Origin: Cellulomonas sp. SG140
GTDB lineage: Bacteria; Actinomycetota; Actinomycetes; Actinomycetales; Cellulomonadaceae
Direction of reading: 5' to 3'
Assembly: GCF_025770785.1 (NCBI RefSeq)
Contig: NZ_JANZLA010000007.1
Location: forward strand, 124,001 to 188,000
Length of the DNA: 64,000 bases
The first letter of the stretch is position 1, and the number at the start of each line of letters is the position of its first letter. Made by a program: the position numbers and the translations under genes. Of the stretch, positions 2,466 through 54,949 are shown piece by piece. The notes below the pieces were generated by a model that saw nothing but the letters and a program-made list of their open reading frames with translations, searched no databases and was not told the DNA's origin.

Positions 2466-4064
2466 ATGAGCCTGTCGACGACTGGCACGGCGGGGATCCG
2501 TCGGTGGTGGGCGCTTGGTGGCGTCACGCTGGCGGTGCTCGCCGTCTCGATGGACGTCACCATCCTCAGCGTCGCCCTGCCGACCCTCGCGGGGGCGCTG
2601 TCGGCCTCCGCCTCGGACCTGCAGTGGTTCTCCGCCGGGTACGCCCTGGTGCTCGCGGCGCTGATGCTGCCCGCCGGCTGGCTGGGGGACCGCGTGGGCC
2701 GCAAGCGGGTGCTGCTCGGCTCGCTGCTGCTGTTCGCGGTGGGCTCGGCGGCCTGCGCCGGCGCGGACAGCCCGGCGTGGTTCATCGGCGCCCGCCTGGT
2801 GCTGGGCGTCGGCGGTGCCGGCGTGATCGTCATGGCGATGTCCGCCCTGATGGTCCTGTTCGACGACGACGAGCGGCCGCGTGCCGTCGCCGTCTGGGGC
2901 GCCGCCAACCTCGTCGCCTTCCCGGTCGGGCCGATCCTGGGCGGCTGGCTGCTGTCCCACGCCTGGTGGGGGTGGGTGTTCCTGCTCAACGTCCCCGTCA
3001 CCGTGCTGGGGATGCTCGCCGTGGCTGCGTGGGTGCCGGAGAGCTCCGCCGGCCGGCCGCCCCGGCTCGACGGCGTCGGCATCGTCGCCTCCAGTGCCGG
3101 GCTGACCGTCCTGACGTGGGGCTTCATCCAGATCGGTCAGGACGGGTGGCGCTCCGTGCCGGCGTGGGCCCTGATGGCCGGTGGGCTGCTGGTGCTGGTC
3201 GCCTTCGGCGTCTGGGAGGTGCGGCTGTCCCGGCGCGGACGGCAGCCGCTGGTGGACCCGGCCCTGTTCCGGTCGAGGCTGTTCACCTGGGGGGTCACGC
3301 TGTTCGCGGTGCTGACGCTGGCGCTCATCGGCCTGATCTTCGCGCTGCCCCAGTACTTCCAGGCGGTGCTCGGCACCGACCCGGAGGGGTCCGGGCTGCG
3401 GCTGCTGCCGCTGGTCGGCGGGCTGCTGGTCGGCCTCGCGCCGTCCCGGGTGCTGGCCACCCGGCTGGGGATCAAGCTGACGGTCGCCGCCGGCTTCGTC
3501 GTCCTCGGGGCTGGCCTGGCGCTCGGGGCGACCACGACCCCGGTGTCGGGCACCGGCTTCGCGGCCCTGTGGACGGCGATCAGCGGAGTCGGTACCGGCA
3601 TGGTGATGGCGACCGTCGCGGCGGCCGCGCTCGCGGAGATCAGCGCCGACCGCGCCGGTGTGGGGTCCGCCGTGCTGCAGGCCGTCAAGGGGGTCGGGGC
3701 GCCGCTGGGCGCGGCCGTGCTGGGCAGCGTGCTCGCCGCCGGCTACCGCAGCCGCCTCGACCTGACGTCGCTGCCCGCGCCGGCAGCCGATGCGGTGCGG
3801 GCCAACGTGTTCGCCGGCCTCAAGGTGGCGCACACGCTGCACGACGCCGCGCTGGGCCAGCAGGTGCGCGCCGCGTTCGTGCACGGTGTCACCGGCACGC
3901 TGCTCGCCTCGCTCGCCGTCGCCGTGGCGGGGGCGCTGCTGGCGCTGGTGTTCCTGCCGGGACGCGTGGTGCCGGCCGTCGCGCCTGAGGCCGACGACGA
4001 TGCGGGACACGCCGCTGCTGCGGTGCCGGGCGCCGGGAGGGGAGCGGCGCGACAGCCTCGGTAG
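2466..4064 (+). CDS. MFS transporter, DHA2 (EmrB/QacA) drug efflux family
   Basis: This 532-residue protein has about 14 hydrophobic segments. Segment 1 carries the DHA2 motif around LAVSMDVTILSVALPTL, and the loop between segments 2 and 3 has the MFS motif GWLGDRVGRKRVL. It is expected to export small lipophilic compounds at the cost of the proton gradient. The start is fixed by GGAGG 5 bp upstream. The C-terminal 30 residues are hydrophilic. A tetR gene follows 26 bp later and a palindromic operator precedes the start, the usual layout of a drug-inducible pump. Confidence 0.92.
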   Translation: MSLSTTGTAGIRRWWALGGVTLAVLAVSMDVTILSVALPTLAGALSASASDLQWFSAGYALVLAALMLPAGWLGDRVGRKRVLLGSLLLFAVGSAACAGADSPAWFIGARLVLGVGGAGVIVMAMSALMVLFDDDERPRAVAVWGAANLVAFPVGPILGGWLLSHAWWGWVFLLNVPVTVLGMLAVAAWVPESSAGRPPRLDGVGIVASSAGLTVLTWGFIQIGQDGWRSVPAWALMAGGLLVLVAFGVWEVRLSRRGRQPLVDPALFRSRLFTWGVTLFAVLTLALIGLIFALPQYFQAVLGTDPEGSGLRLLPLVGGLLVGLAPSRVLATRLGIKLTVAAGFVVLGAGLALGATTTPVSGTGFAALWTAISGVGTGMVMATVAAAALAEISADRAGVGSAVLQAVKGVGAPLGAAVLGSVLAAGYRSRLDLTSLPAPAADAVRANVFAGLKVAHTLHDAALGQQVRAAFVHGVTGTLLASLAVAVAGALLALVFLPGRVVPAVAPEADDDAGHAAAAVPGAGRGAARQPR

Positions 4065-52348: not shown

Positions 52349-53113
52349 ATGGCGCGGATCACCTGCAACTTCTTCTCCACGACGCTGCGGGTCAGCACGG
52401 CGATCACCGTGCTGCTCCCCGAGCCGGCGGACGGGCAGATCGGGGTGACGGGGTCGCCGTCGGAAGCAGCGCCGCCCGTGCTCTACCTGCTCCACGGCCT
52501 CTCGGACGACGAGACGATCTGGACGCGTCACACGTCCATCGAGCGGTACGTCTCGAAGCTGGGCCTGGCGGTGGTGATGCCGCGGGCCGGGCGCTCGTTC
52601 TACCAGGACGAGGCCTACGGCTCCGCGTACTGGAGCTTCCTGACGGAGGAGCTGCCGGAGATGGTCCAGCGCTTCTTCCGCGTCTCGGAGCGGCCGGAGG
52701 ACACCTTCGTCGCCGGGCTGTCGATGGGCGGGTACGGGGCGTTCCGGTGGGCACTGACGCACCCTGGCCGGTTCGGTGCCGCCGCGTCGCTGTCCGGGGC
52801 TCTGGACGTGGCGCACCCCGACCAGGCGGCGCTGTGGGCGGGTGAGGTCCCCCAGGTGCTGGCCGGCGCGCCCGTCCCCGCAGAGGCCGACCTGATGGCG
52901 TTGCTCCGCGACGCCGACCGGGACGCGCTGCCGCCGCTGTACCTCGCGTGCGGCACGGAGGACTTCCTGTACCCGTCGAACCGGCGGTTCCTGGCGCTCG
53001 CCGAGGAGCTGGACGTGCCGGTGCAGACGGAGCTGCGGCCGGGGACACACGAGTGGGGGTTCTGGGACGAGTCGATCCAGCGCGTGCTGGAGTGGCTGCC
53101 GCTGCAGCGGTGA
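52349..53113 (+). CDS. alpha/beta-hydrolase esterase (CE1 / EstA-like)
   Basis: This 254-residue esterase has the nucleophile elbow FVAGLSMGGYGAF, an oxyanion strand VLYLLHGLSDDETIW, the acid near CGTEDFLYPSNR and the His in GTHEWGFWDESIQ. The pattern matches the tributyrin esterase / acetyl-xylan and feruloyl esterase group. There is no signal peptide, so it acts in the cytosol, perhaps trimming acyl groups from imported sugars. ATG 52349 has AAGGAG upstream. Confidence 0.9.
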   Translation: MARITCNFFSTTLRVSTAITVLLPEPADGQIGVTGSPSEAAPPVLYLLHGLSDDETIWTRHTSIERYVSKLGLAVVMPRAGRSFYQDEAYGSAYWSFLTEELPEMVQRFFRVSERPEDTFVAGLSMGGYGAFRWALTHPGRFGAAASLSGALDVAHPDQAALWAGEVPQVLAGAPVPAEADLMALLRDADRDALPPLYLACGTEDFLYPSNRRFLALAEELDVPVQTELRPGTHEWGFWDESIQRVLEWLPLQR

Positions 53114-53288
53114 CGCCGGGGCGCCGGGCGCTCCGGTGCGGTAGTTCTCGGCTCGCGCGGGTGGTGGCGCACGGCGCGCGTCCGACTGGTCCGGCGCCGT
53201 CGAGGGACCTGCGGACCGGGTCGCCCGCACCGGTCCGGCGCTCCGGAAGCCCTGTGGATCACCGCGACGGCGTGTCGGTGGCCGTCGA

Positions 53289-53309
53289 TAGCATACGAAC
53301 ATGCGTTCG
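53289..53309 (+). promoter_or_regulatory. LexA-type SOS box over leaderless promoter
   Basis: CGAACATGCGTTCG (53296-53309) is a perfect match to the Gram-positive/actinobacterial LexA consensus CGAAC-N4-GTTCG. It starts 2 nt after a -10 box TAGCAT (53289-53294) and contains the ATG of an 11-codon upstream ORF. LexA binding would block the transcription start, making the DUF222-HNH gene DNA-damage inducible. Confidence 0.8.
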
Positions 53310-53336
53310 AAGCGGGCCGCGGCGGTGGCGGGATGA
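53301..53336 (+). CDS. 11-codon upstream ORF coupled to the DUF222-HNH gene
   Basis: ATG lies 6 nt after TAGCAT, as in leaderless starts, and encodes MRSKRAAAVAG before a TGA. The stop overlaps the ATG of the endonuclease gene as ATGA, so a ribosome that finishes here can re-start on the main gene, which lacks a good ribosome site. Confidence 0.45.
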   Translation: MRSKRAAAVAG

Positions 53337-54949
53337 CGGCGGCCGTCGTCGACCGTCCCGTGCCGGCGCGCGTCGAGGTGGGTGCGGCGTCCGACGTTCT
53401 GCGCGCCGCGCAGGTGCTCCTTGCGGCGGTCGACGCGGCGGAGTCCTGGTCCGCCGGTGAGCGCCGCACGGCGTTGGAGCGGGTGGATCGCGCGGCGGGT
53501 CTGCTGGCCGCGGCTCGGGCAGCACTGCTGGCGGCCGAGCGAGCGGCTGGGACCTGGGCGCTGCACGGCGACCGCGACCTGACGGCATGGCGGGCGCGGA
53601 CCTCGCGAGCCGGGGTACGGGAGGCGGTGGGGCAGGTCCGCCAGGCCGACGCCATCACGACGATGCCTCAGGTGCGTGGCGCGCTGACCAGGGGAGCGAT
53701 CACCACGACGCACGTCGACGCGATCGCCCGGTTCACCGCAACCGCTCCGCCCCGGGTCGTGGAGCACGCGCGGTCAGGTGCGGGACAAGCGGCGATCGTC
53801 GCCCTCGCCACCCGGGTGGACGGTGCGGGACTGGGCAAGGCGCTGACGCGGTGGCAGGCCGAGCTGGACCCCGCTGCCCGGCAGCGCACGCACGACGAGC
53901 AGCAGGCGGCGCGCTACCTGAACCTCTCCGAGACGCCCGGCGGAACCTATGTGAAGGGCCTGCTCGACTCCGTCGCAGGACACCGGTTGCGGCTCGCTCT
54001 CGAGGCGGTGACCCCACGTCCCGGTGTCGACGACGACCGCGCTCCGGAGCAGCGGCGCGCGGACGCCCTCGCGCAGCTGGCCGACCGTGCGCTCGACGAC
54101 ATCGGTGCCGCGACCGGTCCGGCCGGGCGGCCGCACGTCAGCCTGGTGCTGAGCGAGTCCACGTGGCGGGCCCTGCGCGAGCGCGGTCACGAACCGGTGG
54201 GTCAGCGCGGTACGGCCCGCGGGCGAGGTGTGGCTGACGAGGTGGGTGCGGGCGCCGGGCGAGGTGTGGCTGACGAGGTGGGTGAGGGCGCCGGACGAGG
54301 TGTGGCTCGTGGTCAAGGGGCAGCCGGTGAGTGGGGTGTCATCGGCGGCCTCGGTCCGGCTCGGGCGAGCGCGGGGAGCGCCGTGGAGACGGAGCGAGCC
54401 CTCGCCGGCGTGCCGCCGGTGTGCGACGAGGACGGGAACCCCTGGCCGGCGTCCGAGGTCGGCCGAGTGCTGTGCGACTGCCACGTCACCCGCGTCGTCG
54501 TCGACGCGGACTCGGTGCCGCTCGACCTGGGTCGTACGCAACGGCTGTTCAGCGCCCACCAGCGGAGGGCCGTCACCGTCCGGGACGGAGGGTGCGGGTG
54601 GCCTGGGTGCAGCACGCCGGCACGGTGGTGCGAGCTGCACCATCTGACGTGGTGGGACCGCGACGGTGGCCCGACGGACCTGCGGAACGCCGTGATGCTG
54701 TGCTCGTTCCATCACCACCAGGTCCACCGGCGGGATCTGACGGTCCACCGGGAGCCACCGGGGTCGCCGCCGGCTGCCGCGAGCGCTGGTGCACGGGCGG
54801 AGGGTCGGTCGGACGGAGGCGGCTCCGGACCACCGGACCAGGTGGTCGGGATGTCGTCGGCCGAGAGGCGGCAGAGTCGTTACCGGTTCACCATGCCGGA
54901 CGGGCGTGACGCCGTCACGTTGCGCGTCAGCATGCCCGCGGACCCGTGA
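53333..54949 (+). CDS. DUF222/13E12-type HNH endonuclease family protein
   Basis: This 538-residue protein has an N-terminal helical DUF222 region (about residues 15-280), a low-complexity middle with a 12-residue repeat (RGVADEVGAGAG), and a C-terminal HNH nuclease: GCGWPGCSTPARWCELHHLT, then DLRNAVMLCSFHHHQVH with zinc-like Cys and catalytic His. These proteins belong to the 13E12 repeat group common in actinobacteria; some mycobacterial members are reported in the SOS regulon. A LexA box sits on the promoter here. Alternatively the start may be at an internal GTG. Confidence 0.9.
   Translation: MTAAVVDRPVPARVEVGAASDVLRAAQVLLAAVDAAESWSAGERRTALERVDRAAGLLAAARAALLAAERAAGTWALHGDRDLTAWRARTSRAGVREAVGQVRQADAITTMPQVRGALTRGAITTTHVDAIARFTATAPPRVVEHARSGAGQAAIVALATRVDGAGLGKALTRWQAELDPAARQRTHDEQQAARYLNLSETPGGTYVKGLLDSVAGHRLRLALEAVTPRPGVDDDRAPEQRRADALAQLADRALDDIGAATGPAGRPHVSLVLSESTWRALRERGHEPVGQRGTARGRGVADEVGAGAGRGVADEVGEGAGRGVARGQGAAGEWGVIGGLGPARASAGSAVETERALAGVPPVCDEDGNPWPASEVGRVLCDCHVTRVVVDADSVPLDLGRTQRLFSAHQRRAVTVRDGGCGWPGCSTPARWCELHHLTWWDRDGGPTDLRNAVMLCSFHHHQVHRRDLTVHREPPGSPPAAASAGARAEGRSDGGGSGPPDQVVGMSSAERRQSRYRFTMPDGRDAVTLRVSMPADP
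54224..54313 (+). repeat. 36-bp tandem repeat inside the DUF222-HNH gene
   Basis: Two full units (54224-54259, 54260-54295) and a half unit begin CGAGGTGTGGCTGACGAGGT. They differ at only a few bases and add 12 residues each, keeping the frame. The repeat lies in the linker between DUF222 and HNH domains. Confidence 0.85.

Follow-up and report, generated by a model that had tools for sequence, protein, structure and literature searches.

The window (the whole stretch of 64,000 nucleotides that was analysed) contains on its forward strand, at 53333–54949, a gene encoding a DUF222-HNH (13E12-type) protein of 538 amino acids. The protein matches the Pfam DUF222 profile (PF02720) above its cut-off (E-value 1.6e-22; 80.7 bits against a cut-off of 24.4), with the best stretch of the match at residues 47–287 (53471–54193, forward strand). 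An HNH nuclease motif follows at residues 421–466 (54593–54730, forward strand); it scores 17 bits with Pfam HNH, under the cut-off of 21.4, and its residues C421, C426, H436, H437, N452, C457 and H460–H462 are invariant in six aligned proteins. Searches of NCBIfam and PHROGs gave weak matches only, mostly HNH-type, while PADLOC and PDB searches with the protein returned no match. The AlphaFold model has a mean pLDDT of 44. As a best guess, offered tentatively, the protein may be a damage-induced DNA-cutting enzyme. The linker before the HNH motif holds an in-frame repeat with a period of 36 bases (about 54222–54307), in which CGAGGTGTGGCT occurs at 54224, 54260 and 54296. Long antisense reading frames over the region were disregarded, as these are usual in DNA of high G+C content.

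Two orthologs from the same genus (L066 and L067) were compared with the window gene. Both carry about 800–850 extra bases, which by eye hold a VOC-type gene, between an esterase gene and the HNH gene; the window (region 53112–53251) is without these bases. The L067 locus also has a tandem array of 8-base units (GGTGCCCA, then GGTGCCCT) just 3' of the HNH gene at 2978–3152, which is absent in the window. The L067 reading frame (G093:C6:507952-509337) contains an in-frame TAG, and L067 may therefore be a decaying copy.

Upstream of the DUF222 frame lies a palindrome, CGAACATGCGTTCG, at 53296–53309, which agrees with the actinobacterial LexA operator in all 14 letters of the 14-mer. It is the sole perfect CGAACN4GTTCG site in the 64-kb window, where shuffled sequence leads one to expect 0.07. 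The extended 16-mer at 53295–53310 (unstranded), ACGAACATGCGTTCGA, agrees with TCGAACN4GTTCGA at 11 of the 12 specified letters, and the mismatch is the first base, which is A instead of T. The description of the site as a perfect LexA site in the initial annotation thus holds for the 14-mer and fails for the 16-mer. The same operator is found at lexA and recA of this genome. A total of 15 perfect boxes were counted in the genome (3.81 Mb, 18 contigs), against none for the pattern read backwards; they include the sites at lexA (L013, LexA_DNA_bind), recA (L014, RecA) and a gene read by us as imuA-like, for which the RecA profile match is weak. Because the same sites precede lexA and recA, the palindrome is taken as the LexA operator of this genome.

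Some of the 15 boxes are perhaps not operators, since the L016 box falls within a gyrase-B-type reading frame. Two others, L024 and L026 (G000:C14 and G000:C18), are one stretch together with their flanks, present on two contigs in opposite orientation, which reflects either a duplication or an artefact of assembly. At L018 (1482–1516), TAGGAT-N6-ATGGGTTCGAACAGGCGTTCGA marks the start of a gene for a small protein; its predicted leaderless ATG stands immediately 5' of the LexA box, which would place this box within the coding region.

The operator abuts a second regulatory element that the initial annotation had overlooked, leaving its interpretation incomplete. The PafBC-dependent promoter motif (RecA-NDp) has been written as tTGTCRgtg, 8 nt, TannnT (PMC5656591) and as TGTCGG-N10-TANNNT (PMC8151990) in the parts of these sources available. 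A perfect match, TGTCGGTG-N8-TAGCAT, occupies 53273–53294 and agrees at 11 of 11 positions. It is composed of the -26 element TGTCGGTG at 53273–53280 (forward strand; 8 of 8 letters of TGTCRGTG) and the -10 element TAGCAT at 53289–53294 (forward strand), a TANNNT at exactly the RecA-NDp spacing; the same bases also fit the form TGTCRG-N10-TANNNT. A single base separates TAGCAT from the 14-mer, and the 16-mer follows it directly, so the -10 element lies outside the box and is not, as had been proposed, covered by it. Control sites for two DNA-damage pathways are therefore packed into about 40 bases at a nuclease gene. A scan for sigma-70 promoters found none at this promoter (no sigma-70 -35), and it expects none in shuffled sequence either.

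The genome encodes a PafC-type regulator (HTH_PafC, E-value 7.5e-36, above cut-off) and contains 23 perfect PafBC motifs, with none in the reversed control. Downstream products were identified for all but nine of these sites; they include recA, uvrA, uvrB, a LigD-type polymerase, thymidylate kinase, an exonuclease, a PD-(D/E)XK nuclease and a UvrB_inter protein read as Mfd. Four DUF222 genes stand behind perfect PafBC motifs, the window gene among them. At uvrA (L325, G000:C12:70635-70656), a one-mismatch LexA box starts 18 nt before a perfect PafBC motif, an offset that differs from that of the window gene. Eight genes of the genome have a Pfam DUF222 match (L009–L011 are second pieces of these same genes). 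A LexA box with at most one mismatch is found in three of them (L001, L007 and L008) and a perfect PafBC motif in four (L002, L003, L007 and L008), so that two carry both elements; L007 is the window gene.

The operator also contains an ATG at 53301–53303 (forward strand), as first noted, and its A is the predicted transcription start, 6 nt after the -10 element (L334), within the 5–8 nt expected before the start codon of a leaderless transcript. It is plausible from this spacing that the transcript begins at this ATG. A spacing of 6 nt is the commonest at PafBC motifs of this genome (10 of 23). An ATG or GTG stands 5–8 nt after the -10 element at 17 of the 23 own perfect PafBC sites, compared with 11% of positions drawn at random from the window; for TANNNT of any kind in the window, the fraction is already 11/25. 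The remaining six sites have no leaderless NTG, and the preferred ORF call begins at the leaderless NTG in just 12 of 23. From these counts, a leaderless start is likely for about half or more of the PafBC promoters of this genome.

The ATG at 53301 opens an upstream reading frame of 11 codons, MRSKRAAAVAG plus TGA (53301–53336, forward strand). As the initial annotation had it, the TGA (53334–53336) overlaps the ATG (53333–53335) of the DUF222 frame in an ATGA at 53333–53336 (forward strand), the stop/start overlap typical of a coupled gene pair and the predicted point of termination and reinitiation. There is no ATG, GTG or TTG upstream of 53333 in the open DUF222 frame. Translational coupling of the upstream ORF to the HNH ORF is plausible from this arrangement; RNA structure at the second ATG and over the upstream ORF is no more stable than in shuffles (z 0.30).

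A block of 26 bases (53286–53311), which includes TAGCAT, the box and the ATG, is identical in both same-genus orthologs, and the -26 element of L066 departs from the motif at one position. L066 and L067 share the upstream ORF length and the ATGA overlap with the window, and their peptides are MRSNGVVAMAA and MRSNVPPAVAG; six of the eight later codons differ among the three, so the peptide is not conserved. Other relatives, L068 and L069 among them, begin directly at the same ATG (MYSNGVAEVAG... and MHSNVAIAP...). Most likely, the upstream ORF is what a frameshift left of an N-terminus that was once translated from the leaderless start, and the TGA-ATG overlap would keep the HNH ORF translated. 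The simplest history would be a frameshift within a variable N-terminal linker.

A family-wide survey was based on 181 DUF222 5' regions from the phylum. Eight are from this genome, 26 and 18 came from searches of the family and the genus, 29 from a search of 296 genomes of the phylum, and 100 are further copies hand-picked from listings; the sample is accordingly non-random and holds related copies. Dropped before counting were L053, L062, L064, L121 and L085–L094 (match far into the gene, 3' part only, or weak), L081 (contig end near) and L065 (the window copy), whereas L110 and L116 were retained despite having less than 200 nt upstream. The named loci L027–L035 lie outside the set. Boxes were searched within 450 nt upstream and compared with 20 rounds of dinucleotide shuffling.

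LexA boxes were found in 39, 96 and 133 of the 181 regions when no mismatch, up to one and up to two mismatches were allowed, respectively, against 0, 0.25 and 4.7 in shuffles, and four control palindromes built from these letters occur in 0–4 regions. In 75 of the 133 regions, a TANNNT in the sense orientation begins 5–7 nt ahead of the box; one region has it in antisense. The strict PafBC motif at the right spacing is present in 53 of 181 regions; eight other spacings give 0–1 and the antisense strand gives 0. Both the motif and a box with at most one mismatch occur in 26 regions, and such a box without the motif in 70. The motif without a box of at most two mismatches was seen in 18 regions, and neither element in 30; the other 37 regions have a two-mismatch box, which the motif accompanies in 9 and not in the remaining 28. 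At the strict PafBC sites (n = 54), the -10 element abuts a box in 23, an NTG follows the -10 by 5–8 nt in 43, and both apply to 21.

An ATG is embedded in the box, at either of the two places considered, in 73 of the 133 regions. Of these 73, 50 share the DUF222 frame, and 17 and 6 fall in the two other phases (p 4e-10), whereas boxes without ATG show no preference of phase (21/22/17, p 0.70); these p values overstate the case, because the regions are not independent and were chosen among best matches. After thinning to less than 60% identity, the phases of the embedded ATG were 40, 10 and 5 of 55. Among boxes with at most one mismatch (n = 96), the ATG is present in the sense orientation only in 20, in antisense only in 4, in both in 38 and in neither in 34.

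The direct leaderless layout, in which a -10 element abuts the box and the reading frame from the embedded ATG or GTG continues into DUF222 without a break, is present in 46 of the 133 regions. Operator, start codon and probable transcription start would occupy the same bases in these 46. Of the rest, 15 have a -10 element and a start out of the DUF222 frame, 14 have a -10 element and no start in the box, and 7 have the box before a -10 element from which DUF222 would start leaderless. A downstream -10 element is all that is present in 3, and 48 fit neither of the defined geometries.

The layout that suggests coupling was also seen beyond the genus. Upstream ORFs of 7–9 codons that end on ATGA or GTGA are found in other families of the phylum (L104, L109, L115, L117, L118, L180 and L182). 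Out-of-frame embedded ATGs (n = 23) lead in 11 cases to an (A/G)TGA that overlaps the open DUF222 frame, compared with a mean of 1.29 and a maximum of 6 in 500 rounds of letter shuffling. This count leaves out L066 and L067, whose alignment begins at the main ATG although both do have the overlap, and L197, which by eye looks coupled and was not in the script's count.

Another HNH gene of this genome, L022 (also L294), was considered as a second coupled upstream ORF and rejected. It lies on the minus strand, has no Pfam DUF222 match, and its perfect LexA box is followed by TAGGCT-N6-GTG. Since TANNNT-N6-NTG comes just after the box, the real start is probably downstream and the upstream ORF incidental. 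The same geometry, with the box before the -10 element, is shared by eye by its relatives L295, L296 and L310; no such box start was seen by eye in two further relatives, L297 and L298.

The alternative that survives best accepts LexA and PafBC control and treats the ATG in the box as incidental: the mRNA would carry a leader of about 32 nt, and a G-rich, weak ribosome site would serve direct initiation at 53333, with no coupling. A weak GGTGG in the leader before 53333 and the lack of conservation of the upstream peptide speak for this, as do the same-genus loci L071, L083, L210 and L216–L218, which have the -10 element and the box with no ATG in the box. By eye, translation of these loci seems to begin some 30 nt further downstream, so the window ATG might likewise be incidental. 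Against it stand the excess of embedded ATGs in the DUF222 frame with no bias where the ATG is absent, the agreement of the ATG position with the spacing at PafBC sites of this genome, and the retention of the length and overlap of the upstream ORF in both orthologs. Incidental placement of the ATG is regarded as less likely than the preferred reading of a leaderless start inside the operator.

The initial annotation had also suggested a role in mobile-element biology, in which the SOS box would link movement of the element to damage. 13E12 repeats have been described with features of mobile elements, according to the passages available from PMC5005354, and occurrence varies, with a match to the window protein in 31 of 60 same-genus genomes and none in the other 29. 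However, the two nearest orthologs sit between the same flanking genes as the window gene, with both flanks at about 90% identity, so that a location of these orthologs at different places is ruled out. By tblastn, only partial matches were obtained, in 1 of 50,697 phage records and 6 of 72,556 plasmid records. The material examined lends the suggestion no support, and a mobile element is considered improbable.

It could further be argued that LexA alone matters and that the TGTCGGTG motif is a chance match, as 70 of the 181 regions have a LexA box (at most one mismatch) without the strict PafBC motif. Yet the window motif matches at 11 of 11 letters, a score reached by 38 of the 181 regions and by none in ten shuffle rounds; the motif depends on exact spacing; and the DUF222 genes of this genome without a box (L002 and L003) have a perfect motif. 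Chance is thus a very improbable source of the PafBC motif. For the reading that the palindrome itself arose by chance and regulates nothing, there is the expectation of about 0.07 perfect sites per window; position, orientation, conservation and family-wide enrichment all contradict it, and it is scarcely credible.

LexA control of this protein family is known from M. tuberculosis. In the accessible parts of the sources, 13E12 genes belong to the LexA regulon (PMC4181829, PMC5005354). PMC4181829 assigns 28 genes to this regulon, mentions 10 13E12-family HNH genes, and gives a role in mismatch repair as a proposal for 13E12 HNH proteins. Five putative HNH endonucleases were RecA-dependent under mitomycin C, according to the text available from PMC8151990. 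The operator TCGAACN4GTTCGA and the DUF222-HNH family are common to that regulon and the window; in contrast to the window, the available portions of the M. tuberculosis accounts mention no start codon in the box, no abutting PafBC promoter and no coupled upstream ORF. The refined M. tuberculosis motif MKWMTCGAAMRYWTGTTCGA has WTG at the commoner place of the embedded ATG, which is not the place used in the window; this link is drawn here.

PafBC is activated by single-stranded DNA, upon which the housekeeping polymerase uses promoters with the -26 motif, and it stands between sigma domain 4 and the DNA, in the available text of PMC11804915. The PafBC promoters of recA (P1) and uvrA have the motif in common with the window. 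In M. smegmatis recA, as far as that text describes it, PafBC and LexA each have a promoter of their own (P1 and P2), whereas the window has one promoter with both, the operator abutting the -10 element. Genes with both a RecA-NDp motif and an SOS box were already known, as the portion available from PMC8223512 states. Leaderless lexA and recX mRNAs have been reported in M. tuberculosis in the available passages of PMC2897130 and PMC3062782. Like the start predicted for the window, these have the start codon at the transcription start and belong to SOS-related genes; unlike it, their start codon is not placed inside the LexA operator in those passages. In the accessible text of PMC9416677, the M. 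smegmatis HNH nuclease MSMEG_1275 cleaves chromosomal DNA, and its overproduction is lethal. It compares with the putative HNH nuclease of the window and differs in being controlled by an ArsR regulator.

The damage-response reading of the DUF222-HNH gene proposed initially is thus well supported by its regulatory sequences, and its LexA part is not new, because such control is established for the 13E12 genes of M. tuberculosis. The earlier observation was essentially right once its geometry is corrected, and the interpretation partly right and incomplete, with its main point known for the family. A limited literature search, with sources seen in part, found no description of an operator-embedded start codon, an abutting PafBC-LexA composite at DUF222-HNH genes or a coupled upstream ORF; the compact layout recurring in related bacteria is apparently undescribed within that scope.

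Taken together, the region is probably a two-input DNA-damage promoter, in which a PafBC -10 element abuts a LexA operator that holds a leaderless start, followed by a coupled upstream ORF and the HNH ORF. The basis is sequence elements, spacing, enrichment, frame bias and conservation, while the LexA and PafBC mechanisms were established elsewhere. The start site, leaderless initiation and coupling are predicted from spacing and statistics, and we infer the AND-like logic and the damage-induced DNA-cutting role. In undamaged cells, LexA on 53295–53310 would block the start region, and the promoter, having no sigma-70 -35, would stay unengaged without activated PafBC. Upon damage, single-stranded DNA would bring about both RecA-promoted LexA cleavage and PafBC activation; because it triggers both, loss of the repressor and gain of the activator would coincide at one start. 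The mRNA would begin, leaderless, at AUG 53301, and the ribosome would translate 11 codons, stop at the UGA, which shares bases with the following AUG, and restart on the HNH ORF.

Composite sites of this kind occur elsewhere in the phylum. The composite TANNNTCGAACNNATGTTCG was found in 49 of 296 genomes and its reversed control in none of the matches listed, and the window-type composite TANNNTNCGAACATGNGTTCG in 8 of 296. The 39 loci retrieved with one or the other composite, two of them from this genome, include 17 DUF222-HNH matches plus one by Pfam, 4 RuvC and 4 UvrD-type helicases; among the remaining 13, two are RuvC-like by eye.

On a broader view, which is favoured by a small margin over doubt, Actinomycetota would have a large class of SOS genes (DUF222-HNH, ruvC and UvrD-type helicases) in which operator, transcription start and start codon are fused, often, at DUF222-HNH genes, on a PafBC promoter. 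The half-site would encode the first residues (M-F-D/E or M-x-S), LexA and PafBC would form a two-input gate, and frameshifts would be fixed as ATGA- or GTGA-coupled upstream ORFs. As the start codon could not move without breaking the operator, N-terminal frameshifts would persist as tiny coupled upstream ORFs. If true, this would account for the non-random central bases of the actinobacterial SOS box, which would often be a start codon, and would correct likely start codons across a large, poorly annotated nuclease family. The region would also offer a short natural promoter in which LexA-RecA sensing and PafBC sensing of single-stranded DNA could be separated base by base, and it makes testable what a repressor acting on the start codon together with an activator acting at -26 achieves beyond either alone.

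In other genomes, RuvC and UvrD-type helicase genes likewise have their first ATG within a LexA box that abuts a -10 element (L237, L238, L240 and L242; L251, L253, L257 and L258). The 2.46-Mb genome G132 carries 31 composite sites of -10 element, LexA box and ATG, 12 on the forward and 19 on the reverse strand. Among the 13 sites that were read (L274–L286), 12 begin a DUF222-HNH protein directly and one a RuvC-like protein, which from the sequence looks like an unusually large expansion of damage-controlled nucleases.
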